Source: Mesorhizobium sp. 1M-11
Lineage (GTDB): Bacteria > Pseudomonadota > Alphaproteobacteria > Rhizobiales > Rhizobiaceae
DNA length: 64,000 nucleotides
NCBI RefSeq assembly: GCF_001303895.1
Contig: NZ_LJSD01000057.1
Coordinates: 1 to 64,000 of the forward strand
Direction of reading: 5' to 3'
Part shown: positions 18,740 through 35,665 of the stretch, one piece after another
How positions within the stretch are numbered: position 1 is the stretch's first letter
Layout: every line of letters starts with the position of its first letter
Translations under genes and position numbers: made by a program
The notes under the pieces: model-generated
The model's database searches: none
Told to the model about the DNA's origin: nothing
The model's input: the letters and a program-made list of their open reading frames with translations, nothing else

Positions 18740-19432
18740 ATGGCCGAAAAGATGCAACTTGGACTGACCGCCGTCGATACCGCCCCCCTGCACGAGAAAG
18801 TCTATCTGGAGATCGTCCGCGCACTGATGTCGGGCCAGTTTGCCCCCGGCCAGAAACTGACGTCCCGAAAGGTAGCCAAGGAACTGGGAACCAGCGATAT
18901 GCCTGTGCGTAGCGCCTTCATGCGCTTGCAGGCCCTGAGGGCGTTGAGCCCTTTGCCCAACGGCAGCATGGAAGTGCCCGTCATCTCGGCCGAGCGGTTT
19001 TCGCAACTGACGGCGGTGCGCACCCTTCTGGAGGGGTCGGCGACCGAGCTTGCCGCGCAACGCATCAACGGCAACACGCTGCGCACGATACGCCGCAACT
19101 GCGCCGAGTTGACCGAAGCCGCCCAAGCAGGCGTCATCAACGACTACCTGCGCAAGAACTACAATTTCAAATTCTCGATTTACCGCCACTGCGGAAACGA
19201 CCAGATGATCTTTCTGATCGAGACGGTGTGGATGCAGGTTGGGCCGTTCCTGCGCAACCTGACCACCGGTTACGAGGACAATCTCGCCTCGATCCTCGAC
19301 ATCGACTACCATGACGAGGCGGTGGCGGCGATCGCGGAACATGACGGCGCCCGTGCCCGCGCCGCCATCGTGCGGGACATCAATGACGGCTACCAACACC
19401 TGCTGAAGCACGTCAAATTTCCCGAAGCCTGA
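18740..19432 (+). CDS. GntR-family regulator, FCD subgroup
   Basis: Regulator of 230 aa with an N-terminal winged helix at about residues 17-75 (LHEKVYLEIVRALMSGQFAP, TSDMPVRSAFMRLQALRAL) and an FCD ligand domain with LTAVRTLLEGSATELAAQRI and helices ending at YHDEAVAAIAEHDGARARAA. This is standard FadR-type length. It is divergent from the hydrolase-binding protein-C45 operon and convergent with the operon ending in the serine hydrolase at 19439. It is the nearest candidate to read the TGCGATC-N3-GATCGCA palindromes upstream of three operons at 24.8, 29.1 and 35.6 kb, but this is inference. Confidence 0.88.
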   Translation: MAEKMQLGLTAVDTAPLHEKVYLEIVRALMSGQFAPGQKLTSRKVAKELGTSDMPVRSAFMRLQALRALSPLPNGSMEVPVISAERFSQLTAVRTLLEGSATELAAQRINGNTLRTIRRNCAELTEAAQAGVINDYLRKNYNFKFSIYRHCGNDQMIFLIETVWMQVGPFLRNLTTGYEDNLASILDIDYHDEAVAAIAEHDGARARAAIVRDINDGYQHLLKHVKFPEA

Positions 19433-20590: not shown

Positions 20591-20656
20591 TTTCGTTTCC
20601 GTCTTGAACAAGGGATGAACCGAGCCGCTCTATCGGCCCCGGCAAGCCGATCGCGG

Positions 20657-21568
20657 TTATTCGCGCTCTCTACCGATCTTCCAGTACCCCATCAGGTTTG
20701 CGAGCCGCCGGTCGATCCCTCGCTCCTTGACCAGCGCCGCGCGGATCCGGCTGACCGCCCCGGTTTCACCGGCGACCCAGGCGTAGAACGTGTTGGTCGC
20801 GCAAGAAGCGCGATCCCAAAGCAGATCGTCGCTATCGGGTTCCATGAGCGCCTCGGCAGTCGAGCCGGCTAAAACATCGCATGGCAACTCGACCTGGTTG
20901 GCAGCCATTATCATCTTGTCGCCATAAGCATGCGCCTCCCCGGCCGGGCCTTCACGAACCAGCCAGCGCAGATCGAGACCATGCCACGACGGCACGTCGA
21001 GTTTGTCCGCCTCGCCCGGCACCTCCAGGAAGGCATCCACACGTGGCTGCACCTCAAGGGCAGCCAATTCCTCCAGGATTCCGGCAGCCGCCGGCAACGC
21101 GGTTTCGTCGGCAATCAGCAGAACGTGTCGAACACCCGTCGGCGGTTGCCATTCATAACCACCGACCTGGCCGTCGTAGTTGGCGTTGGGCGCCGACATC
21201 TGGATGGGATCGCTCGGCACAGCGTTGAGCGCCCAGCGTGACGCCGGCCCGTTGTCGCCATGCAGCACGAAATCGACATCCACTTCACAGCGGTCGGCCC
21301 GCAGATATCGGATGGTGTAGGTGCGCATCGGCGCGCGCTCGCGCGGCGGCGCGGTGCGATAGATATCGTACCAGTCGGCTCGGTTCGGGATTGCCGGCAA
21401 CGTCCCGTCCGCTCTTGGGAAAAACAGCTTGATACGCTGGTCGGGAGCGAACGTCGCCATGCCGGCGACGTCCTCGCCGGCCAAGGTGATGCGCGCCATA
21501 TGCGGTGACAGGATCTGCTTGCCTGCGTGACGAACGTCGAAGATGCGATAGGCACTCTGTTCAGCCAC
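20657..21568 (-). CDS. Siderophore-interacting FAD-dependent ferric reductase (SIP family)
   Basis: Flavoprotein of 303 aa of the ViuB/SIP type, which reduces Fe(III) in ferric siderophores with NAD(P)H and so releases iron in the cytoplasm. The FAD-binding stretch is R-x-Y-T (MRTYTIRYLRADRCEVDVDF, about residue 80), followed by HGDNGPASRWA and a C-terminal NAD-binding half (VLLIADETALPAAAGILEEL, FYAWVAGETGAVSRIRAAL). GTG 21568 with GGAGAGG 6 nt upstream is the best start and overlaps the upstream gene by 8 nt. Its presence inside a catabolic operon, with no siderophore receptor nearby, is unusual. Confidence 0.88.
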   Translation of the reverse strand: MAEQSAYRIFDVRHAGKQILSPHMARITLAGEDVAGMATFAPDQRIKLFFPRADGTLPAIPNRADWYDIYRTAPPRERAPMRTYTIRYLRADRCEVDVDFVLHGDNGPASRWALNAVPSDPIQMSAPNANYDGQVGGYEWQPPTGVRHVLLIADETALPAAAGILEELAALEVQPRVDAFLEVPGEADKLDVPSWHGLDLRWLVREGPAGEAHAYGDKMIMAANQVELPCDVLAGSTAEALMEPDSDDLLWDRASCATNTFYAWVAGETGAVSRIRAALVKERGIDRRLANLMGYWKIGRERE

Positions 21569-22379
21569 GATCGACCTCTCCTTCCGCGCCAAACCCTCCC
21601 AGCCGCTCCAGGATCGCGGCAATGGCGGCCACCCGTTCTTCGTTGGAAGCGGCTACGGAACCGTCGGCATTCCACAGGCTGTTTTCAAAGCCCACACGCG
21701 CTTTTCCACCCGCAGCAAGCGCAGCGGAAAGTGCCTCGGTCTCGCCGCGGCCGAAGGCGCACACCATCCAATCCGGCTGAACCGGCAAGGCCGAAGCGAC
21801 CTCAAGAAAATACCGCAGGTCATCGGCACTGCTTTCCTGGCCCGTGGAATAGCGACCGAGAACAAAAAGCACCGAAAGGCCCGCCGCCGGTACGACGCCG
21901 CGCGTGATCAGCTCCGCGAGCCGGCCAACATCGCCGGCGTCATACAGAATGTGCTGCACGGCGATGTTGTGTCCCAGACACCAGTCGTAGAAATCGGCGG
22001 CTGCCGCCTCGCCGCCTGCATCCGGGACAAATTCGCGGATCGCTGCCGAGATCGCATTCGGCCTCAACGCGCGGACCAACGCCATCTGCTCCGACGGCTT
22101 GTAGAGGCCGACGGCTTCGGTCGTGACCTGCACCATCATGTCGGGCGCAGCCGCGTTGATCAGCCTTGTCACCTGCGTGTAAAGCATCTCATCCAGCACA
22201 TGCTGGCCGTCCGCATTGCGTACATGAAGATGAATGGCGCCCGCGCCCGCCGAAAAACAGGCCGCAGCGGTCGCGGCGATTTCGTCCGGGAACACCGGCA
22301 GGTGCGAATGATCGGCTTTGGTGCGCCTGGCGCCGTTCGGTGCGACCATGATGCGTGGCAGGGTCGGCATGCTTCTCAT
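21561..22379 (-). CDS. Beta-keto acid cleavage enzyme (BKACE, DUF849)
   Basis: Zinc enzyme of the BKACE family, which uses acetyl-CoA to cleave a beta-keto acid into acetoacetate and a new CoA ester. The 272-aa protein shows the metal-binding HLHVR motif after GAGAIHLHVR (about residue 50) and the late GFENSLWNADG stretch that supplies a conserved Glu. The ATG overlaps the stop of the dehydrogenase gene (ATGA), so the pair is translationally coupled. In carnitine catabolism a dehydrogenase-BKACE pair converts L-carnitine to betainyl-CoA. Here the neighbours differ (aminotransferase, siderophore reductase, serine hydrolase), so another beta-hydroxy acid may be used. Confidence 0.88.
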   Translation of the reverse strand: MRSMPTLPRIMVAPNGARRTKADHSHLPVFPDEIAATAAACFSAGAGAIHLHVRNADGQHVLDEMLYTQVTRLINAAAPDMMVQVTTEAVGLYKPSEQMALVRALRPNAISAAIREFVPDAGGEAAAADFYDWCLGHNIAVQHILYDAGDVGRLAELITRGVVPAAGLSVLFVLGRYSTGQESSADDLRYFLEVASALPVQPDWMVCAFGRGETEALSAALAAGGKARVGFENSLWNADGSVAASNEERVAAIAAILERLGGFGAEGEVDRG

Positions 22380-23332
22380 GCGTCCCCCTCCAGCGTGCGC
22401 AACAACGCAATCAGCAATCTGTCACGGCGTGCACCCAGCTTTTCGATGCTTTGACCCGCGGCTTCGTCCTCAATGCCGGAAATCAACGCCGCACGAGTGT
22501 TTGCATCGAGCTGGGGAGAGCCAAGCGATGCCCACCGGGCTTCCTGCGCCGGGCCAAGGTGCTTCAGATAGGCAGCGATGCCTCCCTCGCCGCCCCCCAA
22601 ATGATAGAGCATGTGCGGGCCTTCGATCGCCCAGCGCAAGCCCGGCCCGGACCGAATTGCTCGATCGACATCGGCCACGCTGGCAATCCCTTCGGCAACG
22701 ATGTGCACGGCCTCGCGCCACAGCGCCGCCGTCATCCGGTTTGCAACGTGGCCCGGCGCTTCACGTGCCACCTTGATTGGCACCTTGCCGATGCGCTCCA
22801 GGAAATCATAGGCGGCATCCTGGGCTGCCTGTGCAGTTGCCGCTCCCTTCACCAGTTCGACAAGAGGAACCAGATGCGGCGGGTTGAACGGATGCGCGAC
22901 GAGCACCCGTTCGGGATGTCTGTTGCATTGCAGCTGGAGATCGCTGGCCATGAATGAGGAGGTGCTGGAGCCGATCACCACATCGGGTGCCGCGACGGCA
23001 TCGATCCGTGCTAGCAGGTCCTGCTTGAGCGTCAGGTTTTCAGGCGCGTTTTCCTGGACATAGTCACAGCCGTGCACCGCATCCTCAAGCCGCTCGAAAA
23101 ACAGCAGATTGCCAGCGCAGGTTGTCGCCATAGGCCTCAGTTGCGACAGGTCCTGAAGCCCATCGCCGACCGTCTTGCGCAACCGGCCTTCCGCGCCCGG
23201 CTGCGGGTCATGGGCATGTACCCTGAGGCCATGGCTGAGGAAGTAGGCAGCCCAGGCCCCGCCGATCAACCCTGAGCCGACAACCGCGACCGTCTCGATC
23301 GTCCCGGATCGGCAAGTCCCCGGCCCCGTCAT
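22376..23332 (-). CDS. Carnitine-dehydrogenase-like 3-hydroxyacyl dehydrogenase
   Basis: NAD-dependent dehydrogenase of 318 aa. The Rossmann motif is GSGLIGGAWAAYFLSHG (about residue 18), the substrate domain has SSTSSFMASDLQ, then AHPFNPPHLVPLVELVKG, and the helical C-terminal half has APGHVANRM and ALWREAVHIVAEGIASVADV. The IRSGPGLRWAIEG segment is typical of the L-carnitine dehydrogenase/lambda-crystallin branch, not the FadB branch. It probably oxidises a 3-hydroxy acid to the 3-keto acid cleaved by the coupled BKACE enzyme. It starts 1 nt after the aminotransferase stop. Confidence 0.87.
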   Translation of the reverse strand: MTGPGTCRSGTIETVAVVGSGLIGGAWAAYFLSHGLRVHAHDPQPGAEGRLRKTVGDGLQDLSQLRPMATTCAGNLLFFERLEDAVHGCDYVQENAPENLTLKQDLLARIDAVAAPDVVIGSSTSSFMASDLQLQCNRHPERVLVAHPFNPPHLVPLVELVKGAATAQAAQDAAYDFLERIGKVPIKVAREAPGHVANRMTAALWREAVHIVAEGIASVADVDRAIRSGPGLRWAIEGPHMLYHLGGGEGGIAAYLKHLGPAQEARWASLGSPQLDANTRAALISGIEDEAAGQSIEKLGARRDRLLIALLRTLEGDA

Positions 23333-23333
23333 T

Positions 23334-24743
23334 TCAGAGATGTCCCTCGCGGAGCAGGTCTGCAGTCACCTCGTCGATAGCGTCGCGCAGTGTCTCGGCA
23401 AGCTGCGACAGCTCCGCTTCCGTCACCACGAAGGGTGGCGAAAGGGCGATAACATCCGAATTCGGCAAAGCGCGGACCAGCACACCGCGACGGCGCGCCG
23501 ACAGGGCAACACGAGCAGCAACCTTCAGCGAAGCCGGGAATGCAGCTTTCGTTGCGTGGTCCGCGACGAGCTCGACGCCCATCATGAAGCCCGCGCTGCG
23601 CACGTCACCGACCAGCCGAAGGTTGAGCAGCGTCTCGGCAAAGCGGGATCCAAATGCGGGCGCCATCGCGGCGACACGCTCGACAAGCTTTTCGCGTTCG
23701 AGAATGTCGAGGTTGGCCAGGGCCGCCGCGGCACAGGTCGGGTGTCCTGAATAGGTAAAACCGTGCGCGAACGGGCGTCCGTCATGCGAGGCTTCCTCAA
23801 ACACCGACCAGATCTGCTCGCCGACCAGCACGGCCGACAACGGCAGATAGCCGCTGGTCAGGCCTTTGGCGGCAACGATCAGATCCGGCTCGATGCCATA
23901 GAGATCGGATGCGAACCATGTCCCGACACGCCCGAAACCGGTGATGACCTCATCGGCGATGAAGCGAACGTCATGCTTTTCGAGCACCTTGGTGATCGCG
24001 GCAAAATAGCCGCTCGGGGGCGGCAGCACGCCACCGGTCCCCATCACGGGTTCGGCAATGAAACCGGCAACCGTATCGGCACCCTCGGCAAGGATCGCTT
24101 GCTCGAGTTCCTCGGCGAGAAAGGCGGAATAGGCCTCCTCGGTGACACACCCTCGCGCCTGTGCATCCCGGTAAAGGTCCGGACGCGAGACGTGCCTCGC
24201 GAAATCAAGCGGCAGCCCAAAATTCTGATGAACCATCGGTATGCCTGACAGGCTGCCCGCCGCCGCCGTTACGCCATGATAGGCGTAGGCCCGCGAGATG
24301 ATCTTGCGCTTCATCGGCTTGCCACGAAGCATGTTGTACGACCACAGCATCTTTACCGCTGTGTCGTTGGCATCCGAACCGGACAGGCCATAAAACACGC
24401 GCCGCATTCCTTGAGGCGCAAGCTTCAAAAGCCTTTCCGACAGCCTGATGCTCGGCTCGTTGGCAACCGTGTTGAAGGAATGGAAATAAGGCAGTTCCAG
24501 CGACTGTCGGTGGATGGCGTCGGAGATTTCCTTGCGACCGTAACCGGCGTTGACGCACCAGAGCCCGGCAGCGCCATCGAGATAGGTCTTGCCGGAAACA
24601 TCGGTGATCGAGCAACCCGCCGCATGCGCCATCACCAGCGCGCCATTCTTCTGCTGATCGGCAATCGCGGTGAAGGGATGAAACTGGGTTTCCCGATCGA
24701 GCGCCACCAAGGCCTCGCCTTCAAATCCAGCGTTTGCCACCAT
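23334..24743 (-). CDS. Class III PLP-dependent omega-aminotransferase
   Basis: Aminotransferase of 469 aa. Visible are the N-terminal LDGAAGLWCVNAGYGRKEI, SGSDANDTAVKM (phosphate loop), YHGVT, the cofactor Asp in FIADEVITGFGRVGTWFAS and the Schiff-base Lys in LIVAAKGLTSGYLPLSA (about residue 290). The family includes omega-amino acid:pyruvate and putrescine/cadaverine:pyruvate aminotransferases. ATG 24743 has GGAGGAG just upstream. It heads the five-gene operon and lies 61 nt from the 17-bp palindrome placed between a good -35 and -10. The likely substrate is a diamine or omega-amino acid released from the imported compound. Confidence 0.92.
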   Translation of the reverse strand: MVANAGFEGEALVALDRETQFHPFTAIADQQKNGALVMAHAAGCSITDVSGKTYLDGAAGLWCVNAGYGRKEISDAIHRQSLELPYFHSFNTVANEPSIRLSERLLKLAPQGMRRVFYGLSGSDANDTAVKMLWSYNMLRGKPMKRKIISRAYAYHGVTAAAGSLSGIPMVHQNFGLPLDFARHVSRPDLYRDAQARGCVTEEAYSAFLAEELEQAILAEGADTVAGFIAEPVMGTGGVLPPPSGYFAAITKVLEKHDVRFIADEVITGFGRVGTWFASDLYGIEPDLIVAAKGLTSGYLPLSAVLVGEQIWSVFEEASHDGRPFAHGFTYSGHPTCAAAALANLDILEREKLVERVAAMAPAFGSRFAETLLNLRLVGDVRSAGFMMGVELVADHATKAAFPASLKVAARVALSARRRGVLVRALPNSDVIALSPPFVVTEAELSQLAETLRDAIDEVTADLLREGHL

Positions 24744-24794: not shown

Positions 24795-24823
24795 TGTATA
24801 ATTTGCGATCGACGATCACACAA
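24795..24823 (-). promoter_or_regulatory. Promoter with embedded 17-bp operator
   Basis: On the minus strand TTGTGT (24823-24818) and TATACA (24800-24795) are spaced by exactly 17 nt. The spacer carries the palindrome TGCGATC-GAC-GATCACA (24804-24820; one mismatch to the consensus TGCGATC-N3-GATCGCA). A repressor here would block polymerase directly. It serves the aminotransferase operon. Confidence 0.7.
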
Positions 24824-24974
24824 CAGAAAGTCGATGATCCAGCCACGCATCACCCTCGAAAGGTAATTTTCTTTTGTTTTTCAATCTATTTTCTGAATTT
24901 TCCAACCGAAAGGCCAAGAGACATTCGCCTTAATAGGAGCAAAAAACTGCCAAAGATAAAGATCGCAATCTGGG

Positions 24975-26945
24975 CTAGGCTTCTACGCAGACATCCCCGA
25001 TCGGACTGGTGGAGCAGGCCAGGACATAACCTTCGTCCTTCTCGGACTGCGAAAGCACGGACCGCTCAGGGTCGGCCGCATTGGCAGCCACTCGCCATTC
25101 TCCGGAAACCACCTTGCAGCGACAACTTCCACAGATGCCGGCTTCACAGTCGGACGTCAGATCGACACCGATCTTGCGCGCCAGTTCCAGCAGCGTCACC
25201 GTGCCGGAGCCACTGACCGATTTGCCTGCCTTGAGAAAGGAGACCTGATAGTTGCCGATTTCCGGCAACGGCATCGCCGAGCGATCGGGACCGAAGGTTT
25301 CTTCCAGGAATGGGAACTCCGGCGTGGAACTCCAGCCCTCATAGATTTCCCGGGCCTTGGTTCGAAAACCATCCGGGCCGCAACACAGCACCGCCCTCCC
25401 CGCCAAATCGGGACAAATCGCGTGCATCATGGCGTCGTCGAGCCGACCGGCCAGAACCCGCACACCGTACTTGCCACCTTCAAACCGACCAGCAAGGACA
25501 TCGGCTTGTGCGACGGCGTCTCTCCCCGTCAGGTTCCACGAAAGCTTCAGCCGATCACCCATCTGCGTCTTGATCGACAGCAGCTCATTCAGAAACGCGA
25601 CGTCATCGAGACCGCGTGCGCTGTGATGGAAGCACACATCAAGCGGCAGGTTGGTATCGGCAATGAAGCGCAGCATCGCCATCATCGGTGTGATGCCGCT
25701 GCCGGCGGACAAAAGCAGGAGCTTGTCGGCACCACTGGCGGCGGCAAGATGAAAGCGACCATTTGGTCCAAGCGAGCGAATGCTGTCGCCGACTTTCAGC
25801 GTATCGTGCAACCAATTGGAGACGCGGCCGTCACCGACCCGCTTCACTGTCACGGACATATAATGGGGCCGCGACGGCGAGGAAGAGATCGTGTAGTTGC
25901 GGCGCACGGTTTCGCCGTCGATATCCAAGAGCAGCGTGATGAACTGGCCGGGCTTGTAGTCGACGGCATGGTCTGCGGCGAAACGGAACGTGCGGAAATC
26001 GGCCGCCTCGTCAATGATCGCCACGCAGTTTAGCCGGCGCTCATGGCTGCCTTGACGTGCGGCCGTGCCTTGACCGGCTGTAGTGGATGGAAGACGCATC
26101 ACCGGCTGCGCGTTTCCCGGCAGGATGGTGATCGCGGGCTTGCGCGACAACACTTCCACCTTGTCGCCGACATGCAGTCGGCCAAGCGTCCGGGGGATGA
26201 GAAACTGGCCGAAATAGGCCTTGCCATCCTCACCGCGCCGCTGACGGCCGAGCATCGCCAGCGGCTCGTGATCGGACCGCGCCTCGCCAGTCGCGGGATC
26301 GAGCGTGGTCATCACGCAACGGTCGCAAGCGCCGATAGCCTCGAATTCAACATCGCCGATCCGCACATGACGCCAGCCATCCTCATCGAATGCAGATGCC
26401 CCGCTGACCACGAGATTGGGCCGAAAGCGCTCCATTTCCACTTCGAGGTCGAGGTAGCGGTTGATATCGGCAAGCGAGGCGAAGTTGGTCAGCAACAACG
26501 GCGCTGTGTCGGCAAAGCTCACCGTTCCACCGGGACCGATGGCCAAGGGACGATGGGTGAACGTACCCTTGATGGCCATCCGGCAGGCACGGTCGAGGAA
26601 ACGCGTCAGCCACTGGCTAACCTCTTCGCCGGCATCGAGCGCCACGACATCGTCGCCCCAGATCGAGACGTTGCGAGCGACATCGAGTTGACCACGCGAG
26701 AACACCATCGGCGACATGCCAGGCGCGGCAAGAACGATCTCGTCGCCGTCCACATGCGTACGGATCTGCATCAGACGCGGCGCCTTGCGGGCTGTAAGGC
26801 AGTCGCCGGTCTCGTCGACGACCATCATGCGCCGATCGCCTGTCAGTCCCTCGGCCTCCAGACGAGCCGTCTCCGCCGGGATCCCCGCGCCTGACTTCAG
26901 CGGATAGAAGGTGATGCGTTCCAGGCGGCACGAAGTATCCAACAT
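24975..26945 (-). CDS. MOSC (mARC-like) - ferredoxin reductase - 2Fe2S fusion
   Basis: Three modules in 656 aa. Residues 1-270 are MOSC-N plus MOSC, with the CDRCVMTTLDPATGE motif of mARC/YcbX, whose Cys binds the molybdenum cofactor. Residues about 310-555 are a flavin reductase (RRNYTISSSPSRPHY for FAD; LLLLSAGSGITPMMAMLRF for NAD). Residues about 570-656 are a plant-type ferredoxin with CEAGICGSCRC and a later ACSTS cysteine. mARC proteins reduce N-hydroxylated compounds, including hydroxamic acids, and normally need separate electron donors; here the whole chain is fused. It is 9 nt from the esterase gene and within the operon of the polyamine-type binding protein. Confidence 0.9.
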   Translation of the reverse strand: MLDTSCRLERITFYPLKSGAGIPAETARLEAEGLTGDRRMMVVDETGDCLTARKAPRLMQIRTHVDGDEIVLAAPGMSPMVFSRGQLDVARNVSIWGDDVVALDAGEEVSQWLTRFLDRACRMAIKGTFTHRPLAIGPGGTVSFADTAPLLLTNFASLADINRYLDLEVEMERFRPNLVVSGASAFDEDGWRHVRIGDVEFEAIGACDRCVMTTLDPATGEARSDHEPLAMLGRQRRGEDGKAYFGQFLIPRTLGRLHVGDKVEVLSRKPAITILPGNAQPVMRLPSTTAGQGTAARQGSHERRLNCVAIIDEAADFRTFRFAADHAVDYKPGQFITLLLDIDGETVRRNYTISSSPSRPHYMSVTVKRVGDGRVSNWLHDTLKVGDSIRSLGPNGRFHLAAASGADKLLLLSAGSGITPMMAMLRFIADTNLPLDVCFHHSARGLDDVAFLNELLSIKTQMGDRLKLSWNLTGRDAVAQADVLAGRFEGGKYGVRVLAGRLDDAMMHAICPDLAGRAVLCCGPDGFRTKAREIYEGWSSTPEFPFLEETFGPDRSAMPLPEIGNYQVSFLKAGKSVSGSGTVTLLELARKIGVDLTSDCEAGICGSCRCKVVSGEWRVAANAADPERSVLSQSEKDEGYVLACSTSPIGDVCVEA

Positions 26946-26953
26946 AACACCTA

Positions 26954-27910
26954 CTACATTCCCCGGCTTTCAAGCGCTGCGCGGACGGCAGCACAAACTT
27001 CCAGGAAAGCCGCATCCGAAGCCTTCGAGATGCCGGCATGCTGCATGAAGTTATGGATCAGTCCTTCGAAGCAGCGATAGCGGACAGCGTTGCCGGCAGT
27101 CTCGAGCTGCTCGGCGAAAGCCCGTCCCTGGTCGCGCAGCACGTCATTTTCGGCTGCGAAGAAAAGCACAGGCGAAAGGCCGCCAAGGTCGGTTGCCAGC
27201 ACCGGCGACACCCGCGCGTCAGTGGCCATTGCGAGATCCGGCAGATAGGCCTTTGCGAAATATTCGGTCTCGGCAAACTCCAGATAATAACCGACGGCGA
27301 ATTCGCGGTCGGAGTCCGATGGGGGCGCCAAGCCAAGATAGGGCCTGGTGTCGACCAGCGGATAGAGCAGACAGACGGCTCGGAAGAGCTTTTGCCACCT
27401 GTAGTGGCGCATCAGCGCGATGGACAGGTTTGCACCCGCGCTGTCACCCATCAGCACAAAACACGCCGGATCGCCGCCATGATCAGCCGCTTTAGCCAAA
27501 ACCCACTCCACCGCAGCAAGCGCATCCTCGACGGCGGCTGGAAATGGATGCTCCGGCGAGAGTCTGTATTCAACGAAAACAACCAGCGCGCCGCACTCCG
27601 TTGCGATGCGCGCCGATTGCAGCGCGTAGGTTTCGGCATCGCCAAGGACGAAGCCACCGCCATGCAGGTAGAGGATAACCGGCAAGGGACCAGCGACATC
27701 CGCCGGCTTGTAAAGGTGGAGCGATACATCATCCCCGCCCCCAAGCCTGACGATGTCTTCCGTCACCGGCTTTTCGGGTGATCGGCTCATTTCCCGATAC
27801 TGATTGCGGTAACTCCGGCGCGAGCCGTCGAGTGTGACGTCAACCTGCTGGGCGGCCTGTTCGCGCGCAAGATGGTCGAGCATGCTTCTGATATCCGGAT
27901 CGAGTGCCAT
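26954..27910 (-). CDS. Alpha/beta hydrolase, hormone-sensitive-lipase (HSL) family
   Basis: Esterase-like protein of 318 aa with the HSL marker HGGGFVLGD (about residue 85), nucleophile elbow GDSAGANLS (Ser about 160), the acid in AENDVLRDQG and the His in GLIHNFMQHAG. No signal peptide, so cytoplasmic. ATG 27910 and a GTG 6 nt upstream share the same GGAAGTGGAG ribosome region. It follows the polyamine-type binding protein after a hairpin and precedes the MOSC fusion by 9 nt, so it probably hydrolyses an ester or amide in the same pathway. Confidence 0.88.
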   Translation of the reverse strand: MALDPDIRSMLDHLAREQAAQQVDVTLDGSRRSYRNQYREMSRSPEKPVTEDIVRLGGGDDVSLHLYKPADVAGPLPVILYLHGGGFVLGDAETYALQSARIATECGALVVFVEYRLSPEHPFPAAVEDALAAVEWVLAKAADHGGDPACFVLMGDSAGANLSIALMRHYRWQKLFRAVCLLYPLVDTRPYLGLAPPSDSDREFAVGYYLEFAETEYFAKAYLPDLAMATDARVSPVLATDLGGLSPVLFFAAENDVLRDQGRAFAEQLETAGNAVRYRCFEGLIHNFMQHAGISKASDAAFLEVCAAVRAALESRGM

Positions 27911-27936
27911 TTTCACTCCACTTCCAGTCAGATCGC

Positions 27937-27972
27937 GAATTCCGGCGTCATCCCCGTCGCCGGCATGAATTC
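27937..27972. terminator. Hairpin after polyamine-type binding-protein gene
   Basis: Outer arms GAATTC/GAATTC and inner arms CCGGCG/CGCCGG form an extended stem with a small bulge, just after the binding-protein stop and before the esterase gene. It would limit read-through or protect the upstream message. Confidence 0.5.
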
Positions 27973-27989
27973 AGATCTGGATGCCGGGC

Positions 27990-29024
27990 TCACTTCAACA
28001 GGTCTGTCCAGATCTTGGTATACATCGCCTGGACATCGGCCGGGCAGCCGACATTGACCTTTCCGTATTGGACCAGATCAGCCGGAATGTTGAGCTCCAG
28101 CGCATCCTTCATGTCCGCGGGCATAAATTTGTCGGAACCCTTGATCCCGTTCGCATAGCGGGAAAACGCCGACAGCATTGCGGCATTCTCCGGGTCCATC
28201 ACGAAATTCATGAACAGCTTGGCGTTCTCGACATTCTTGGCGTCCTTCAGGATCATCAGATTGTCCATCCAGATCGGATACCCTTCCTTGGGGTAGCCAT
28301 AGAGGATATCCGGATTCTGCAGCCGCGATCGGAAGGAAGCGCCGTTCCAGTTGACGCCGGCGGCGATGTCGCCGCGCGAATATTTATCGATATTGCCGAA
28401 ATCCATGGCCAGCCATTTCCGCTTGGCAGCCACCAACGTGTCGCGCACCTTCTTCAGCACCGCCTTGTCGCTGGTGCACGGCTCACCGCCGACATAGGTA
28501 ACGGCAAGGAACATGACGTCCGACATTTCCGGCACGACGTTGACCTTGCCGACCAGTTCGGCCGGAGGGTCCATGAAAATGGCCGAGGTGTTGATGTCGC
28601 CGGAATAGACCGACTTGTTGACCGTCACGCCCGTCGTGCCCCACATCCACGGCACCGAATAACGCCTACCGGGATCGAACGGCACATCGACCCAGCGCGG
28701 ATCGACATTCTTGAAATTCTCCATCTGGTCGGGACGGCTCTCCAGGACGAGGCCTTCGTCGATCCAAACCTTGACCACCGGAGCCGAAGGCACCACGACG
28801 TCATAGCCGTGACCACCCTGCCGGACTTTGGCAAGCGCGGTGTCGTTGGAATCGTATTCGGTCACCGTGACCTTGACGTCGTATTTCTGCTCGAACTTCT
28901 TGACCATCTCCGGGCTGGTGTAGTTGCCCCAGTTGTAGATGTTCAGCACACCTTCGGCGCGCGCCGAGCCCAGGCCGGCAAGCGTTGCGACGGCAGCTGC
29001 GGCTAAGGTCTTCGTCCAGGCCAT
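27990..29024 (-). CDS. Spermidine/putrescine-type periplasmic binding protein (PotD/PotF-like)
   Basis: Solute-binding protein of 344 aa. A Sec signal ([16 protein letters not shown]) precedes [20 protein letters not shown], the classic start of PotD/PotF mature proteins. Later motifs include [27 protein letters not shown] and [20 protein letters not shown] 29024 has GGGAGGGAG at 8 nt; longer in-frame extensions lack a signal sequence. No Pot permease or ATPase is adjacent, so it either works with the oligopeptide transporter of the same regulon or with permeases elsewhere. It is the first gene after the operator at 29106. Confidence 0.9.
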
Positions 29025-29105
29025 TGTGTTTACTCCCTCCCGGTTTTGCGCCTCGTCATGTGCGCTCACCAACAGACTGTCACGCGACCGCGTGGCATAC
29101 AAGAG

Positions 29106-29122
29106 TGCGATCTGCGATCGCA
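29106..29122. promoter_or_regulatory. 17-bp palindromic operator, perfect copy
   Basis: TGCGATC-TGC-GATCGCA, both arms perfect, 82-98 nt upstream of the polyamine-type binding-protein ATG. It matches the palindromes at 24804 and 35649. Likely GntR/FadR-type regulator site. Confidence 0.7.
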
Positions 29123-29248
29123 AAAATTATTTACTTGTCGGGAGTGTCATGACGCAGTCGAAACCCCGCGAAGCCTCCCGCACGATCACGACAGGCTTTG
29201 AGGGAGGCAGATCACACGAGCGGAAACACTATCGTCGCCAGCGGAAGA

Positions 29249-30445
29249 TCACGCCGTGGCGTAGACATCCCGAATGGCGTGGATTGCCGACAAAGCCTCA
29301 ATCGAGCGGTCCGGGTTGACGAACTCCGGCCAGGTGGACAGTTTCACCGCGGCAAAATCAGTCTGCGGATCCATATAGATATACTGGCCGAAGATACCCC
29401 TGCACATATAGGAGCGCCGCTCGGGATCCTCGATCCAGAACTGGTTGTGATACGCGCCGCGCGGCAGAACGGTCCGATATACACCCTGGAAAAGCTCGTG
29501 ATTGCCGCGCCGGGTTTCCTCGATCCATTCCGAGGGAACGATCTGCCGACCGTTCACCCTGCCTCCACGCAAATGCAGCAAGGCAAAGCGCGCGTAGTCG
29601 CGCAAAGTCGCGTTGAAACCGCCGTCGGCCAGAGCGTAACCGCCGTGATCGACGGTTATATAAGCGTCCTCTTCCGCCCCCATCGGCGCCCACAATTCAT
29701 TGCTGATCAACGCGGCCAGCGGCACCCCGCTGACCCGTTCCATCACAAAGGCGAGGATATCGGTTTCGATCGAGCGGTAGTTGAAAAGCTGGCCATGCGG
29801 TCGTTGCAGCTCGGTCAGTGTCATGACCAGTTGCCACACCGTTTGCGGCCAATCAGGCCGCGTCATCGGCTTCCAGCCGCAGGCCTGGTCGAGCTGCTGC
29901 ATATGCGAGCCCTCCGTGGTGTAGGATTCGTCGAACAGAACGCCGCTCGTCATATCCAGGACCTGCTGGATCGTTGCGCCTCGATAGGCCGTCGCCTCGA
30001 GCTCCGGAAGATACCTGGTCACCGCCGCCGCGGTCTCGACAAGCCCCTTGTGAACAAGGATGCCGAGCACGGTGGCAACGATCGACTTGGTCACCGACAT
30101 CGCCAGATGATGGCCATGCGGTTTCATTCCGTTCATGTAGCGCTCGGCGACAATCTCGCCGCGAGACAGCACGAGGAAACCATCGGTAAAACTGTTGTCC
30201 AGGAAATCGCGGATCGTGCGGCGGCGTCCCGCGACCTCGAATTCGATGTGATCGATTTCGACAGTACGCCTCGGCAACGGCAAAACGGGGCCCTGCCCGC
30301 GCCAGACCTGCGCGGTGGCTGTCATTTCCCGCACATGCTGGAAGGTCCAACGGTGATAAGGAGGATAGTCCCAATCCGCGCGCGGAATGACGGGCGATCC
30401 GGGCACCTTCGGATCGCGCCAGGGCGTATTGCTATTGGCGTTCAT
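29249..30445 (-). CDS. Beta-lactamase-fold serine hydrolase, second copy
   Basis: Hydrolase of 398 aa with SxxK in MSVTKSIVATVLGIL (about residue 118) and the second motif NYRSIETDILAF. Overall plan (RTIRDFLDNSFTDGFLVLSR, then GEIVAERYMNGM) resembles the product of 19439-20590 and 6-aminohexanoate-dimer hydrolase. No signal peptide. ATG 30445 is chosen because GGAGGTG lies 10 nt upstream. It is the last gene of the oligopeptide transporter operon, so it probably cleaves the imported oligomer inside the cell. Amide specificity is inferred. Confidence 0.86.
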   Translation of the reverse strand: MNANSNTPWRDPKVPGSPVIPRADWDYPPYHRWTFQHVREMTATAQVWRGQGPVLPLPRRTVEIDHIEFEVAGRRRTIRDFLDNSFTDGFLVLSRGEIVAERYMNGMKPHGHHLAMSVTKSIVATVLGILVHKGLVETAAAVTRYLPELEATAYRGATIQQVLDMTSGVLFDESYTTEGSHMQQLDQACGWKPMTRPDWPQTVWQLVMTLTELQRPHGQLFNYRSIETDILAFVMERVSGVPLAALISNELWAPMGAEEDAYITVDHGGYALADGGFNATLRDYARFALLHLRGGRVNGRQIVPSEWIEETRRGNHELFQGVYRTVLPRGAYHNQFWIEDPERRSYMCRGIFGQYIYMDPQTDFAAVKLSTWPEFVNPDRSIEALSAIHAIRDVYATA

Positions 30446-30491
30446 TTCTAATTCACCTCCACAATCTGCCGGCGATCTGCGCGAACGCACG

Positions 30492-32150
30492 TCATCCTTC
30501 GATGCTTTCCCGCACCTGCCTGGGCAACCGATGCAGCGAGGCGACAAGCTCCCGCGTGTAGGCCTCTTTGGGGCTCGTCAGGACGTCTGCGGCGGCACCT
30601 TGTTCCACGATCCTGCCCGAGCGAAACACATAGACGCGCTGGCAGAAGGAACTGACGACGAATAGGTCGTGCGAGATATAGACCAGCGTCAGTGCGCGCT
30701 CGCGGCGCAGACGAGCAAGCAATTCCAGGATCTGTGCCTGCGTGGTCACGTCGAGCGCCGAAGTGATCTCGTCGGCGATCAGCACCTGCGGCTGCAGCGC
30801 CAACGCTCTGGCTATGCCTACGCGCTGGCACTGGCCACCGGATAATTGGCGCGGCTTGCGCTCACCGAGTGCGGCCGGCAATTCGACCATATCAAGGAGC
30901 TTCGACGCCTGGCTGAGTGCCGATCGTCGATCGGCCATGCCATGCCGCCAGATCGGTTCGGCGATCGTCTCCAGCGCGGTCATGCGCGGGTTGAGGGAAT
31001 CGTACGGGTTCTGGAACACCATCTGGACGCGCCGCCGCAATTCCAAGAGATCGCGACCAGCAAGCCGCTCGATAGGGCTGCCGTCCAGTTTGACCGTGCC
31101 GGATGCCGGGCGGTTCTGCCTGATGATGGCACGCGCCAGCGTGCTTTTGCCGGACCCGCTTTCGCCGACGATGCCAACCGTTTCGCCCGCATCGATGGCA
31201 AGGTTTACACCATCCAATGCCGCAAAAGGCGTAGGTTTTCGCTTGCGGAGGATATCGACGATATCCCGTTTTCCCGGAAAGACGACCCGCAGGTTTTCGA
31301 CCTGCAGCAATGGTGCCTGCCCTTCAGTTTGTTTCCATCCGGCCTTGAACTGTTTTCTGCCCGGTTGCGAGTCCACCAACAGCCTCGTGTAGGGATGCTG
31401 TGGCGCATCGATGATCTGCCCGGCTTCGCCCTGTTCAACGATCTCGCCATGACGCATCACCATGATGCGCGAGCAGATATCGGCCAGAACGCCGAGATCA
31501 TGCGAGATCAATGCGATCGCAAGGCCGCGCTGCCGGTTGAGGTCCTTCAGCAGTTCGAGGATCTTCGCCTGGACCGTCACGTCGAGGGCGGTGGTCGGTT
31601 CGTCGGCAATCAGCAGTCTCGGTGCACAGCTGATCGCGGCTGCGATCATAACACGCTGTTTCATGCCACCCGACAATTCGTGCGGATATGACTTTGCCCG
31701 CATGGCGGGCTCGCGGATGCCGACGTCCTCAAGAAGCCGAACCGCCTTGTCCCATGCCTCGCTCGCGGAAAGACCAAGGTGCCGGATCATCGGTTGCGCG
31801 ATCTGCTTGCCGACCTTTTGCAGAGGATTGAGGTGCGACGCCGGGTTCTGGAAGATCATCGCCATGTCGCGACCACGCAGTCCTGCCCAGTCGGCCTCGC
31901 CAAGCCCCAGCAATGCTTGATCTTTGAAGCGGACCTCGCCCGTTACTTCAGCCGTCGAAGGCAGCAGTCCCATTGCACCGCGACAGATGGTCGACTTGCC
32001 GGATCCGCTTTCACCGGCAATGCCGACGATCTCGCCGGGCATGATTTGAAACGAGACGTTTTTCAGCACTCGGGTATTGCCAAACCTCACCGAGACATCG
32101 ATGACATCGAGCAGCGGACCCGTCACGAGTGGAGTTACAGGCCCGTTCAT
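30492..32150 (-). CDS. Oligopeptide ABC ATPase, DppD-DppF fusion
   Basis: Double ATPase of 552 aa. First domain: GESGSGKST (about residue 43), LSGGMKQRVMIAAAI, LLIADEPTTALD. Second domain: GESGSGKST (about 335), LSGGQCQRVGIARAL (with Cys at the usual R/Q position), VLIADEITSALD, where Ile replaces the usual Pro after the Walker B Glu. It overlaps the DppC-type gene by ATGA. Energises uptake of the compound bound by the product of 34039-35562. Confidence 0.93.
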   Translation of the reverse strand: MNGPVTPLVTGPLLDVIDVSVRFGNTRVLKNVSFQIMPGEIVGIAGESGSGKSTICRGAMGLLPSTAEVTGEVRFKDQALLGLGEADWAGLRGRDMAMIFQNPASHLNPLQKVGKQIAQPMIRHLGLSASEAWDKAVRLLEDVGIREPAMRAKSYPHELSGGMKQRVMIAAAISCAPRLLIADEPTTALDVTVQAKILELLKDLNRQRGLAIALISHDLGVLADICSRIMVMRHGEIVEQGEAGQIIDAPQHPYTRLLVDSQPGRKQFKAGWKQTEGQAPLLQVENLRVVFPGKRDIVDILRKRKPTPFAALDGVNLAIDAGETVGIVGESGSGKSTLARAIIRQNRPASGTVKLDGSPIERLAGRDLLELRRRVQMVFQNPYDSLNPRMTALETIAEPIWRHGMADRRSALSQASKLLDMVELPAALGERKPRQLSGGQCQRVGIARALALQPQVLIADEITSALDVTTQAQILELLARLRRERALTLVYISHDLFVVSSFCQRVYVFRSGRIVEQGAAADVLTSPKEAYTRELVASLHRLPRQVRESIEG

Positions 32151-33004
32151 GTCGACACCTGCCCGCGACGCAGTTGACCAAGGCCATCACCGAGGAAAGC
32201 CAAGCCAAGCCCCAGTGAAATGGCTGCAAGGCCCGGGAAAGTGCAAATCCACCACGCCTGGCGAATGTAGCGACTTCCATCCGAGATCATGACGCCCCAT
32301 TCCGCCAGCGGCGGCTGCGCACCCATGCCAAGAAATCCGAAGCTCGCGCCGGCAAGCATGACCAGAACCGCATCGCTCACCGCATAGGCAACCACAGGCC
32401 CGAATGCGTTCGGCAATACATGGCGCAGGAGGACAACGCGATCGGAATAGCCCAGGCATTGCGCAGCTTGTATGTATTCGCTGTCGCGGATCGCCATGAC
32501 TTCGGCGCGCACCAGCCGCGCATAGGTCACCCAGCCGACCACGGCCAGTGCGACGAAGAAATTGAGCAGCCCCGGCCCGAGCACACCGACAATCGCCAGC
32601 ACCAGGACAAAGAACGGGAAGGCAGCAGTCAGATCATAGAGCCGCATCAGCAGCGTATCGACCGCGCCGCCATAATAGCCACTCAGCAGGCCAACGGTCG
32701 TACCGATGAAAAGCGGCGGCAACACCCCGGCAAGGCACATTAGAAGATCGATACGCGCGCCATGGATGACGCGTGAAAGCACGTCCCGTCCTACCTGATC
32801 CGTTCCGAACCAATGAGTTGCGCTCGGCCCCTTCAGCGCGTTCACGATATCGATGGCGGTCGGATCATAAGGCGCCACGAATGGAGCAAAGATGGCCAGG
32901 ACAATCCAGATGCCAACGATCGAACCGGCAACGATGAGGCTCCAGGATAAAATGACGGCTGGTTGTTTCATCGAGCTCTGGATGGGAGCGGCTTCCATCG
33001 ACAT
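32147..33004 (-). CDS. Oligopeptide/dipeptide ABC permease, DppC type
   Basis: Inner-membrane permease of 285 aa with HWFGTDQVGRDVLSRVIHGA, six helices, an EAA loop (SEYIQAAQCLGYSDRVVLLR) and a C-terminus LAFLGDGLGQLRRGQV. ATG 33004 is 9 nt after the DppB-type stop. Second channel subunit of the operator-controlled oligopeptide importer. Confidence 0.93.
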   Translation of the reverse strand: MSMEAAPIQSSMKQPAVILSWSLIVAGSIVGIWIVLAIFAPFVAPYDPTAIDIVNALKGPSATHWFGTDQVGRDVLSRVIHGARIDLLMCLAGVLPPLFIGTTVGLLSGYYGGAVDTLLMRLYDLTAAFPFFVLVLAIVGVLGPGLLNFFVALAVVGWVTYARLVRAEVMAIRDSEYIQAAQCLGYSDRVVLLRHVLPNAFGPVVAYAVSDAVLVMLAGASFGFLGMGAQPPLAEWGVMISDGSRYIRQAWWICTFPGLAAISLGLGLAFLGDGLGQLRRGQVST

Positions 33005-33013
33005 GGCGGCCTC

Positions 33014-33943
33014 CTATACCCGTGCCCGAGGGTCGATGGCGGCAGAAAGGAGGTCGACGAGAAAAGTCACCGCCACCGTCGTTACCGCGAACATCAAGGT
33101 GAGTCCCTGTACGACCTGGTAGTCGCGCGCCAGAAGCGAATTGACCATCAAAGTGCCGAGGCCCGGCACTGCGTAGACCGTTTCGACGATGATGGTACCG
33201 CCAATCAGGAAGGCGACGAGCACGCCGAACAGATTGAGCGTCGGCAGGATGGCATTGGGTAGTACGGTGCACCAGAAGATTTCTCGTTCCCCCGCCCCTT
33301 GCGCGCGCGCAGCAACGACGAAATCGGCGGAAGCCTTTTCGATGAGAGCAGCCCTCAGGCTCTGGACCAGTACAGGCACCATCCAGATCGCGGTCGACAG
33401 TGCCGGTAGGAAGAGGTGATGCAGGTGATCGGCAAAGGTCTTGCCGTAGCCTGAGACCGGGAACCAGCCAAGCCCGACGCCGAAGAAGCGCGACATCATG
33501 ATGCCCAGCCAGAATACCGGGATCGCCATGCCGGCAATACCGATGAAACGGATGAGCTGGTCGGCAAGGCTACCCGGCCTGCGCGCGCTGGCGATCGCCA
33601 ATGCAATCGACGGCGGCACGGCCAGACAGATGACATATCCAGTCAGGAAAAGCGTCGGCCAGACATATTGCCCTATCAAGGCGACCACCGGACGCTTATA
33701 GCGCATCGACTGGCCGATATCGCCGGTGAAGAGATTGCCGGCATAGGTCACGAATTGCTGCCACAGCGGCTGGTCCAGCCCGAAACGCTGTCTGATCGCT
33801 TCGATCGTTTCCGGGCTCGCGCGATCCCCCGCAATGACCCGGGCAGGATCACCGGGCACCATATGCACGAGCAGGAACGTGATGATGCAGATACCGGCGA
33901 GCACGAAGATCAGCTGAATGAGACGCCTCAGGACAGTATGCAA
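33014..33943 (-). CDS. Oligopeptide/dipeptide ABC permease, DppB type
   Basis: Permease of 309 aa beginning LRRLIQLIFVLAGICIITFL then HMVPGDPARVIAGDRASPE, as in DppB proteins; six helices and an EAA loop (ADFVVAARAQGAGEREIFWC). TTG 33943 with GGTGG a few nt upstream gives the normal family length. The frame is open much further upstream, but that part overlaps the binding-protein gene and has no DppB similarity. First channel subunit of the operon starting at 35562. Confidence 0.88.
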   Translation of the reverse strand: MHTVLRRLIQLIFVLAGICIITFLLVHMVPGDPARVIAGDRASPETIEAIRQRFGLDQPLWQQFVTYAGNLFTGDIGQSMRYKRPVVALIGQYVWPTLFLTGYVICLAVPPSIALAIASARRPGSLADQLIRFIGIAGMAIPVFWLGIMMSRFFGVGLGWFPVSGYGKTFADHLHHLFLPALSTAIWMVPVLVQSLRAALIEKASADFVVAARAQGAGEREIFWCTVLPNAILPTLNLFGVLVAFLIGGTIIVETVYAVPGLGTLMVNSLLARDYQVVQGLTLMFAVTTVAVTFLVDLLSAAIDPRARV

Positions 33944-33973
33944 CTCGCCACCGTTTCGACCGCTTGAACCAGA

Positions 33974-34020
33974 CCGGCAAAAGCCGGCGTAAAGAAAGCG
34001 GCACGGTGCCTTCGGCACCG
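33974..34020. terminator. Two hairpins after binding-protein gene
   Basis: A strong stem CGGTGCC-TTC-GGCACCG (34004-34020) directly follows the binding-protein stop, and a smaller one CCGGC-AAAA-GCCGG (33974-33987) lies before the permease gene. They likely give differential expression of the binding protein over the permeases. Confidence 0.65.
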
Positions 34021-34038
34021 CGCCACCCCCGGGAGGAT

Positions 34039-35562
34039 CTATTGCTCGATCGTTGTCTCTTCGAGCGTCCACTGCATCGCTGGCGTCATCTTCAGGTTTT
34101 TCAGATGCTTCGAATAGGCGATGGCATAGGGTGAGTAATAAAGCGGGATCTGCGAGACCTCTTCCGTGGCGATCTTGGAGATCTCTTGATAGATCGCAGC
34201 ACGCTTGGCTGGATCCTGCTCGCGCGAGCCCTGTTCGGTCAGCTCGTTCACCCGTTTGTTGTTGTAGAAGGTGTTGAAGGCGTGCGAGTCGCATTCGCCG
34301 CATAGCGCCCAGCGCACAGCAAGATCCGGGTCGGTCACTTCGTTCATCCACCAGGTCGGCGTGGCGTCATATTCGCCCTTGCCTGTCGCGTCCCACCAAC
34401 CGGGAGTGTCGACGTTGACCAGAACCGGCTTCAGCCCGATCGCTTCCCACTGCGCCTGCATGAGAAGCCCGATCTGCTGATTGGTCGACCCGCTTCCCAG
34501 GATGATCTTCACTTCCTTGCCTGCCATGCCGGATTCGGCCAACAGCTGCTTGGCTTTCTCCATATCGGCGACGAGGCCAGGATAATTGTCGTCGTGAAAC
34601 TCGAGTGAACCCGGAAGCGGCGTATTCGCCGCTTTCGCATAGCCGTTGGTGACGGCCTGGGTCAGCGCCTTGTTGTCGAGGGCATAAGCAGCCGCTTGCC
34701 GCGCTTTCAGGTTCGAGAACGGCTCGCGACCGTGATTGAGAAGCGAGACAAAAACGACATTCGACGGCTCCATGCGCATGTCGATGCCGTCGCTGGCCTT
34801 GAGGTCATCGACCTGGGCCCAGTTGACGCCGCGCATGACATCGACTTCTCCTGTCTTGAGCATCGCCGCGGCTGTCTCCGGCTCCGCGATTTCAAGCAAT
34901 TCCACCGTCGCATCCGATTTCGGATAGCCTTGCCGCCAATAGTTTGGATTGGGAGAAAGGACGAGCTTTTCGCCGGGCTTCCATTCCTTGACCATGTATG
35001 GGCCGGACGAGAGCGGAACGGTGGCGAAGGCACCGTCAACGCCACGCTTGTCGACATCCGCCTTCGAGACGATGCCGACATTCCACAATTCCAGATTGGC
35101 CAGCATCGGCGCAAGCGCATGCTTCATCTTGATGACGACTGTCTTGGCATCCTGGGCCGAGATCGATTCCACCGCCGCAAGAGGCGATGGCAGGGCCGAC
35201 TCCTTGTCCGAGCGGACACGTTCCAGGCTGAACGCCACATCTTCAGCCGTCACCGGCGAGCCGTCCGAAAACTTGGCATCGCGCAAATGAAGCGTGTAGG
35301 TCATGCCATCAGTTGTAGCCTCCCATTTTTCCGCAAGGCCAGGCTCCAGTTCACCGGTTTCGAAATTTCGGCGCAGAAGCCGCGAATATAGCTGCCCATA
35401 GACTTCGATGTTTCCGGCCGCACCGGAACGCGATGGATCGAGTGTCGTCGCTGGATAAGGCGATGCGATGCGAATGACCGACTCAGCCTGCGCAATGCCG
35501 CTCGGCGCGAGGACTGCTAAACCCAGCGCAGCCGCCAAAAACGCCTTTGTCATCGTTTTCAT
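34039..35562 (-). CDS. Periplasmic oligopeptide-binding protein (SBP_bac_5 family)
   Basis: Binding protein of 507 aa with a Sec signal (MKTMTKAFLAAALGLAVLAP, cleaved near AQA-ES), a mature start VIRIASPYPATTLDPSRS, the motif FSDGSPVTAEDVAFSLERVRS and the late domain NEVTDPDLAVRWALCGE. GAGGGAG lies 7 nt before ATG 35562. It opens the operon DppB-DppC-DppDF-serine hydrolase and is preceded by the perfect operator at 35649-35665. The two Cys in CGEC may form a disulfide. Confidence 0.93.
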   Translation of the reverse strand: MKTMTKAFLAAALGLAVLAPSGIAQAESVIRIASPYPATTLDPSRSGAAGNIEVYGQLYSRLLRRNFETGELEPGLAEKWEATTDGMTYTLHLRDAKFSDGSPVTAEDVAFSLERVRSDKESALPSPLAAVESISAQDAKTVVIKMKHALAPMLANLELWNVGIVSKADVDKRGVDGAFATVPLSSGPYMVKEWKPGEKLVLSPNPNYWRQGYPKSDATVELLEIAEPETAAAMLKTGEVDVMRGVNWAQVDDLKASDGIDMRMEPSNVVFVSLLNHGREPFSNLKARQAAAYALDNKALTQAVTNGYAKAANTPLPGSLEFHDDNYPGLVADMEKAKQLLAESGMAGKEVKIILGSGSTNQQIGLLMQAQWEAIGLKPVLVNVDTPGWWDATGKGEYDATPTWWMNEVTDPDLAVRWALCGECDSHAFNTFYNNKRVNELTEQGSREQDPAKRAAIYQEISKIATEEVSQIPLYYSPYAIAYSKHLKNLKMTPAMQWTLEETTIEQ

Positions 35563-35648
35563 CTGAAAACTCCCTCTGGGGCGCTTCGCGCCTTCTTGTT
35601 TTCGCCATCAACCAGCCACCAAAGGCGGCGTTCATGACGACACTATTA

Positions 35649-35665
35649 TGCGATCGCAGATCGCA
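35649..35665. promoter_or_regulatory. 17-bp palindromic operator, perfect copy
   Basis: TGCGATC-GCA-GATCGCA, perfect arms, 87-103 nt upstream of the oligopeptide-binding-protein ATG. Same arms and spacing as the copies at 24804 and 29106. Confidence 0.72.

Follow-up and report, generated by a model that had tools for sequence, protein, structure and literature searches.

A predicted GntR operator shared by three operons of Mesorhizobium sp. 1M-11 and a proposed regulon for hydroxamate-siderophore catabolism

Introduction

The closest described regulatory systems are those of FadR, LldR, PdhR and GlcC. They combine a GntR protein carrying an FCD domain with a palindrome that has a 3-nt centre and lies at a promoter near the regulator gene, according to a review (PMC4494728). 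The same review gives the operator boxes of the FadR subfamily as TKGT-N3-ACMA and also lists members with other box letters. A locus of this kind is described here from Mesorhizobium sp. 1M-11, within a stretch of 64,000 nt (contig NZ_LJSD01000057.1, positions 1 to 64,000; the window). Three operons are preceded by the palindrome TGCGATC-N3-GATCGCA, which is very probably the operator of a GntR/FCD regulator encoded beside them. Like the FadR, LldR, PdhR and GlcC sites, it is a palindrome at promoters near the regulator gene. Unlike the consensus in that review, it reads GATC-N3-GATC, with longer arms and ATT/AAT flanks.

The operons encode amidases, importers and a predicted N-reductase. Mesorhizobium loti LU grows on deferrioxamine B; its enzyme was judged serine-peptidase-like, and the degradation is known from the phenotype, with no gene named (PMC5805875). 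Azospirillum irakense is cited as a further desferrioxamine degrader in PMC12364333. MOSC proteins assayed so far reduce N-oxygenated compounds, and mARC reduces hydroxamic acids; a conserved cysteine has been described for MOSC proteins, and a fused MOSC-FAD-ferredoxin layout is known for some YcbX-like proteins (PMC10637980). NylB, the 6-aminohexanoate-dimer or nylon oligomer hydrolase, belongs to the beta-lactamase family and has an SxxK motif.

Results and Discussion

Palindromes and operons in the window

The palindrome occurs at 24804-24820 (TGCGATCGACGATCACA, one mismatch to TGCGATC-N3-GATCGCA) and, without mismatch, at 29106-29122 and 35649-35665. A sequence-only reading of this DNA had placed three copies there, each upstream of the first gene of a separate operon, with arms agreeing at 41 of 42 letters and 13 encoded proteins in total. 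All four statements were borne out. A recount of the arms gave the same agreement, and distances of 60, 81 and 86 nt separate the operon-side edges of the sites from the start codons of an aminotransferase, a PotD-like and a DppA-like gene. In coordinate order, operon 1 has five genes (24.7-19.4 kb), operon 2 three (29.0-25.0 kb) and operon 3 five (35.6-29.2 kb). The same reading had put the 24.8-kb site inside the spacer between TTGTGT and TATACA. The minus strand does read TTGTGT-17-TATACA, a promoter-like stretch; the palindrome covers most of the spacer and, beyond it, the last three letters of TTGTGT. The regulator and the putative operators are as follows, with scores of the weight matrix described below.

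18740..19432, plus strand: GntR/FCD regulator (Pfam GntR PF00392, E 4e-11; FCD PF07729, E 2e-19), the most likely binder of the three operators (predicted)
24804..24820, minus strand: operator 1, TGTGATC-GTC-GATCGCA on the operon strand, overlapping the TTGTGT-17-TATACA promoter-like stretch; matrix score 31.6
29106..29122, minus strand: operator 2, TGCGATC-GCA-GATCGCA on the operon strand; matrix score 35.5
35649..35665, minus strand: operator 3, TGCGATC-TGC-GATCGCA on the operon strand, 5 nt after TTGACA; matrix score 36.8

Rarity of the site

Strict copies are rare. The genome of strain 1M-11 (6.69 Mb, 77 contigs) has two exact copies, six with at most one mismatch and 70 with at most two. 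Both exact copies are in this cluster, and an 11-kb stretch of the 6.69 Mb accounts for three of the six with at most one mismatch. A looser pattern with up to three mismatches was dropped as evidence: the window count of 12 is at chance level (shuffle mean 9.26, sd 2.69), and thus only the strict pattern is informative. The sequence-only reading had expected the sites to be confined to these operons. This holds for the exact copies and not for three further one-mismatch copies elsewhere. Two of these are deep inside genes (C37:9181 and C76:123556; matrix scores 6.5 and -4.7) and were rejected as operators. The third (G000:C1:648530-648546; L210:10531) lies 37 nt before a transaminase gene that is followed by a glutamine synthetase-like (GS-like) gene (40%). 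With a matrix score of 14.0 it is a possible, weak fourth target. Just upstream of it, a 143-aa protein is encoded that by eye resembles a MarR-type regulator.

The weight matrix was trained on 23 sites, all outside the window cluster. The three window sites stand far above every other place in the 64 kb, the best of which scores 7.1. Conservation extends beyond the 17-mer, with A at position -3 in 20 of 23 training sites and T at position 21 in 21 of 23. These flanking positions played no part in finding the sites, and their conservation indicates an operator of about 23-25 bp. The palindrome is real, and it is very probably regulatory.

Pairing with the GntR regulator

Searched with a free centre, the exact pattern was found at 52 places in 43 of 146 Mesorhizobium genomes. 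The centre was TGC or GCA at 45 of these, although it had been left open in the query. Of the 29 loci around exact places that were compared (L007-L035), 22 have an orthologue of the window GntR immediately ahead of the site, with about 75-81% identity in 21 cases and 45% in one. A cross-table for the genus was built from one site form, YGCGATYTGCGATCGCA, and a GntR orthologue threshold of E 1e-60. The site form occurs in 111 of the 146 genomes at 134 places, and the GntR orthologue in 103; relatives are not independent, and these counts are not probabilities. At 94 of the 134 places, the site follows the GntR orthologue at a distance of 47-1345 bp from its end, with identical orientation in all 94. 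A site was present within 20 kb of the GntR gene in 98 of the 103 genomes that have it.

The other 40 places include eight from the four full clusters, each of which contributes its two exact copies, and 25 inside an amidohydrolase gene, assigned by eye. The remaining seven are scattered: one before a GS-like gene (G008), one beside the 45% GntR (G002), one before GS at a contig end (G098), two in G030 (one before the MOSC fusion, one upstream of the BKACE gene with an opposite frame between) and two inside unrelated genes (G005 and G108). Ten of the 43 genomes lacking the GntR carry the site, eight of them only inside the amidohydrolase. In the other two, it stands before a GS-like gene in one and beside the 45% GntR in the other. 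The former (L242 in G008) has kept the operator and the GS-like gene (92%) without a GntR orthologue at E 1e-60. In the latter (L008, G002:C1:3807), a GntR with 45% identity to that of the window precedes an exact site by 143 bp; this diverged copy may keep the same operator.

Paralogues of the regulator served as a control. The 22 paralogue loci (about 33-40% identity; 77,923 bases) contained two sites with two mismatches and none with fewer. The recognition helix TSDMPVR[S/A]A is shared by all ten GntR orthologues compared, and all 22 control paralogues have E or D at the S/A position. Nine of the ten orthologues have the site in the same locus; the tenth, in G030, has its sites on another contig. 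The proposal of a hidden regulon of three operons, with the GntR at 18740-19432 as candidate regulator, is therefore well supported by the rarity of the strict site, the genus-wide pairing, the promoter overlap and a helix missing in 22 of 22 control paralogues. Judged on sequence, the three palindromes are very probably operators of this regulator.

Other regulators encoded in the window could bind the palindrome, namely GntR 9017-9925, AraC 7622-8638 or 49930-50880 and a winged-helix/TPR protein at 41881-43389. They are encoded within about 27 kb of the sites. The loci L007-L035 matched the GntR at 18740 in 22 of 29 cases and gave no separate match to the GntR at 9 kb or the AraC proteins at 8 and 50 kb (weaker overlapping matches had been filtered), and another binder is very improbable. 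The palindromes could also be products of chance or composition, through GATC- and GCGATCGC-rich sequence, a methylation motif or coding repeats. When three mismatches are allowed, the pattern is indeed no commoner than in shuffles, and 25 of the 134 genus places are inside the amidohydrolase gene. The strict sites, in contrast, are rare, and they are found at promoters in the vicinity of a single regulator. Three of the seven exact genus places that have another centre were scored and gave -3.3 to 10.2, compared with 31.6-36.8 for the window sites. Chance is a practically negligible explanation.

Some observations weigh against the assignment of the operators to this GntR. The flanks score poorly (-5.6 to -0.6) at three sites, at least two of them among the 23 used for training, and the lowest training total is 12.8. 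Five of the 103 GntR genomes have no nearby site, one probably due to a contig break. The 25 intragenic places in the amidohydrolase belong here as well; for eight of these, the genome lacks the GntR. Finally, the genome of strain 1M-11 itself has no site with at most two mismatches around its nearest GS homologue (62%; L209), and no operator precedes its 9.6-18.4 kb genes. The orthologous DppB gene carries one in L160, L161, L163 and L278. This operator-free stretch (9615-18383) adjoins the regulator gene and encodes AAT/C45-type acyltransferases, a second Dpp importer and a binding protein.

Promoter layout and comparison with FadR

The position of the operator on promoters was analysed in 61 loci. 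L012, L013, L016 and L032 were left out, having other targets; L010, L019, L023, L166, L167, L168 and L170 showed no TTGGCT-type promoter with the operator motif. The 50 Mesorhizobium loci, with a GS-like gene downstream in 48, gave 43 distinct upstream sequences. All but one of these (42 of 43) share the promoter TTGGCT-N17-TAT[G/A]TT, whose spacer varies in sequence, and the final base of its -10 box is also the first of the operator. The location on the -10 box, and on the -35 box and spacer at 24.8 kb, points to a block of the polymerase and thus to repression; the GntR is likely a repressor. A GntR dimer would bind the extended palindrome ATT-N-YGCGATC-N3-GATCGCR-N-AAT. Bound on promoter boxes or the transcription start, it would hinder RNA polymerase until an inducer derived from the substrate releases it.

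The regulator has the domain order of the subfamily, a winged helix at the N end and FCD at the C end. Its nearest solved relative is McbR (4p9f, E 6e-17). In the 29 listed sites, all predicted operators, nearly fixed arms enclose a variable 3-nt centre; centres of 3 nt or 2 nt are the rule in the subfamily. The boxes are GATC/GATC with only single-letter departures, instead of TKGT/ACMA. The fit to a GntR/FadR-type site proposed from the sequence thus stands for spacing and symmetry; the box letters differ from the consensus in the review. The off-consensus boxes, together with the variant members listed there, make this GntR a less typical member of the FadR/FCD subfamily, still within it. 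The helix sequence departs along with the box letters. The locus appears to offer a case in which operator letters and recognition helix have left the subfamily consensus together. An unexplained palindrome becomes a testable set of regulator, operator and regulon across several genera. In sum, a FadR-subfamily GntR with off-consensus operator letters is predicted to control a gene set that the literature search did not find described.

Conservation before orthologous genes

As the sequence-only reading had anticipated, the sites are conserved before orthologous genes. In the close genomes (L036, L037 and L281) they precede the aminotransferase, PotD-like and DppA orthologues; operator 2 is also kept before the PotD-like orthologue in L217 and L159. 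Genes in the relatives were called as longest frames by codon-position G+C, with approximate starts. Four loci from other genera of the family (L160-L163; GntR 61-68%) have 2-4 promoter sites each, before genes for an aminotransferase, a NylB-like amidase, MOSC, a GS-like protein and DppB. Evidence from other families consists of two loci. The first (family f20, L278; GntR 67%) has three sites with 0, 1 and 2 mismatches, preceding siderophore-interacting/aminotransferase, amidase and DppB genes. The second (family f11, L279; GntR 50%) has one site, just after the GntR gene and where a GS-like gene (36%) is called to begin. Beyond Mesorhizobium, in further genera and in one further family, the orthologues preceded by the site are PotD-like, MOSC, amidase, DppB and aminotransferase genes.

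Genes of the three operons

The 13 genes of the operons are the following.

23334..24743, minus strand: class III aminotransferase, first gene of operon 1; nearest solved structures are 4-aminobutyrate/putrescine-type transaminases
22376..23332, minus strand: 3-hydroxyacyl/carnitine-dehydrogenase-like protein (CDH)
21561..22379, minus strand: beta-keto acid cleavage enzyme (BKACE)
20657..21580, minus strand: siderophore-interacting protein, FAD-binding, ferric-siderophore-reductase-like; start approximate
19439..20611, minus strand: NylB-like serine hydrolase 1, SVSK at 115; Pfam Beta-lactamase; 6-aminohexanoate-dimer hydrolase E 7e-63
27990..29024, minus strand: PotD/PotF-like polyamine-type binding protein, first gene of operon 2
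26954..27916, minus strand: alpha/beta hydrolase, hormone-sensitive-lipase family
24975..26945, minus strand: MOSC_N-MOSC-FAD-NAD-ferredoxin fusion, predicted YcbX-type N-reductase, 656 aa (Pfam; nearest solved structure mARC1)
34039..35562, minus strand: DppA/NikA-type binding protein, first gene of operon 3
33014..33943, minus strand: DppB-type permease; start approximate (frame to 34351, permease matches from residue ~137-143)
32147..33004, minus strand: DppC-type permease
30492..32150, minus strand: fused DppD-DppF-type ATPase
29249..30547, minus strand: NylB-like serine hydrolase 2, SVTK at 151; 6-aminohexanoate-dimer hydrolase E 2.5e-68; true start probably inside the frame

Both serine hydrolases combine the beta-lactamase family with an SxxK motif, and NylB is their best solved match (hydrolase 2 aligned over residues 42-408). 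They are distant from NylB and have other neighbours; their natural substrate is probably another diamine-dicarboxylate amide. The MOSC fusion has the layout of YcbX-like and mARC reductases (PMC10637980), with MOSC_N-MOSC, FAD/NAD and ferredoxin parts in one chain. It differs by its location in a dedicated regulon with amidases and importers, and its reductase activity is a prediction. Compared with mARC1, it retains the cysteine of the ACxRCxxTT stretch, which we take to be a metal ligand. The nearest solved relatives of the 20657-21580 protein are iron-chelator utilisation and siderophore-interacting proteins.

A hydroxamate siderophore as possible substrate

A ferrioxamine consists of N-hydroxycadaverine and succinate units linked into a chain through amide bonds. 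A serine amidase, an N-reductase and amine-handling enzymes fit such a chain. The three operons would import and dismantle amide-linked N-hydroxylated diamines, most likely ferrioxamine-type hydroxamate siderophores. In this pathway, the NylB-like serine amidases would cut the succinyl-cadaverine amides and the Dpp-type and Pot-type systems would import the pieces. The MOSC/FAD/ferredoxin enzyme would reduce the N-hydroxy group; the siderophore-interacting flavoprotein would reduce iron or pass electrons. Transaminase, dehydrogenase and BKACE would channel the carbon to central metabolism. Sites, conservation, pairing, promoter overlap and gene families are observed here, and from them we infer binding, repression, the ligand, the substrate and the order of steps.

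Strain LU may provide a link to a phenotype. Its genome (L037, G028; locus on NZ_PJRO01000006.1) contains the whole cluster in the same gene order, and the deferrioxamine B-degrading enzyme of LU was judged serine-peptidase-like (PMC5805875). In LU, the match to hydrolase 29249-30547 (G028:C32:327016-328311) has one internal stop, which probably precedes the true start, since the called frame leaves out the first 23 matched codons. The amidase orthologue was found at 89-90% in only three of 145 other Mesorhizobium genomes, and the full cluster is present in four genomes: that of strain 1M-11, G092, G028 and G043.

A GntR-controlled regulon for hydroxamate-siderophore catabolism is, as a whole, a probable explanation of the locus. 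For a hydroxamate siderophore as the substrate itself, the gene content leaves the matter evenly poised. The most specific version, ferrioxamine as a food source whose backbone is cut by NylB-like amidases and whose N-hydroxy groups are removed by a single-chain molybdenum MOSC/FAD/ferredoxin enzyme, under a dedicated GntR repressor that senses a breakdown product via a non-standard GATC-N3-GATC operator, is tentative. If true, the cluster supplies the missing genes for deferrioxamine B degradation in M. loti LU and gives a MOSC N-reductase a physiological role. These candidate genes for bacterial siderophore degradation are relevant to the persistence of iron carriers in soil and to what becomes of deferrioxamine, a compound that also serves as a drug. 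A literature search that covered few subscription journals found, in titles and abstract openings, neither genes for deferrioxamine degradation nor the motif as a GntR site.

The same GntR operator could instead control a pathway for polyamine amide conjugates, such as plant phenolamides, or for other amines. The polyamine-type binding protein and the resemblance of the transaminase to 4-aminobutyrate/putrescine-type structures agree with this. The commonest target in the relatives is the GS-like gene, whose best model is gamma-glutamylputrescine synthetase, at a score below the cut-off. Such a pathway has no need for a mARC/YcbX-type N-hydroxy reductase or a siderophore-interacting protein and would make the LU trait a coincidence; we regard it as rather unlikely. 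A service to carnitine or a related beta-hydroxy acid was also considered. The dehydrogenase fits carnitine dehydrogenase models best, the BKACE gene adjoins it, and the reductase part fits GbcB (glycine-betaine-reductase-like) best. None of these model scores reaches its curated cut-off. The regulon stretches of L160, L161, L162 and L278 showed neither dehydrogenase nor BKACE, and the two NylB-like amidases would be left unexplained. Carnitine catabolism is improbable.

The hydroxamate-siderophore reading has to accommodate three points that speak against it. The four full-cluster genomes and G141, which has no close amidase orthologue, are the closest five of 142 matched by one conserved 898-aa protein. 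Owing to this kinship, the LU trait and the cluster represent one shared history and no statistical association; the count of four in 146 genomes, LU being one, was dropped as such and points to one clade. Secondly, the usual neighbour target of the GntR in the Mesorhizobium loci examined is the GS-like gene alone, which suggests amines in general rather than siderophores. Finally, CDH and BKACE are without an obvious step in deferrioxamine breakdown.

Intragenic sites and neighbouring genes

The 17-mer within the amidohydrolase gene spells the codons IIAIADR in 25 Mesorhizobium genomes (e.g. L238:4500-4516). It lies near the start of the gene, which heads an operon with Pot-type and NylB-like genes. 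The 15 closest orthologues, as well as two more distant ones, keep these codons unchanged, and neighbouring codons vary. Eight of the 15 are in genomes without a GntR orthologue at E 1e-60, and the two sites that were scored are low (18.3 and 22.9); as an operator of a second operon, this class of sites was rejected. The 17-mer is either an intragenic operator or a coincidence of codons.

Near the cluster, the window also contains genes for an ABC exporter and a HlyD-type protein (2847-5910). Homologues (39% and 29%) stand beside the cluster in L161, one of the 12 loci compared, and suggest a secretion system linked to the cluster.

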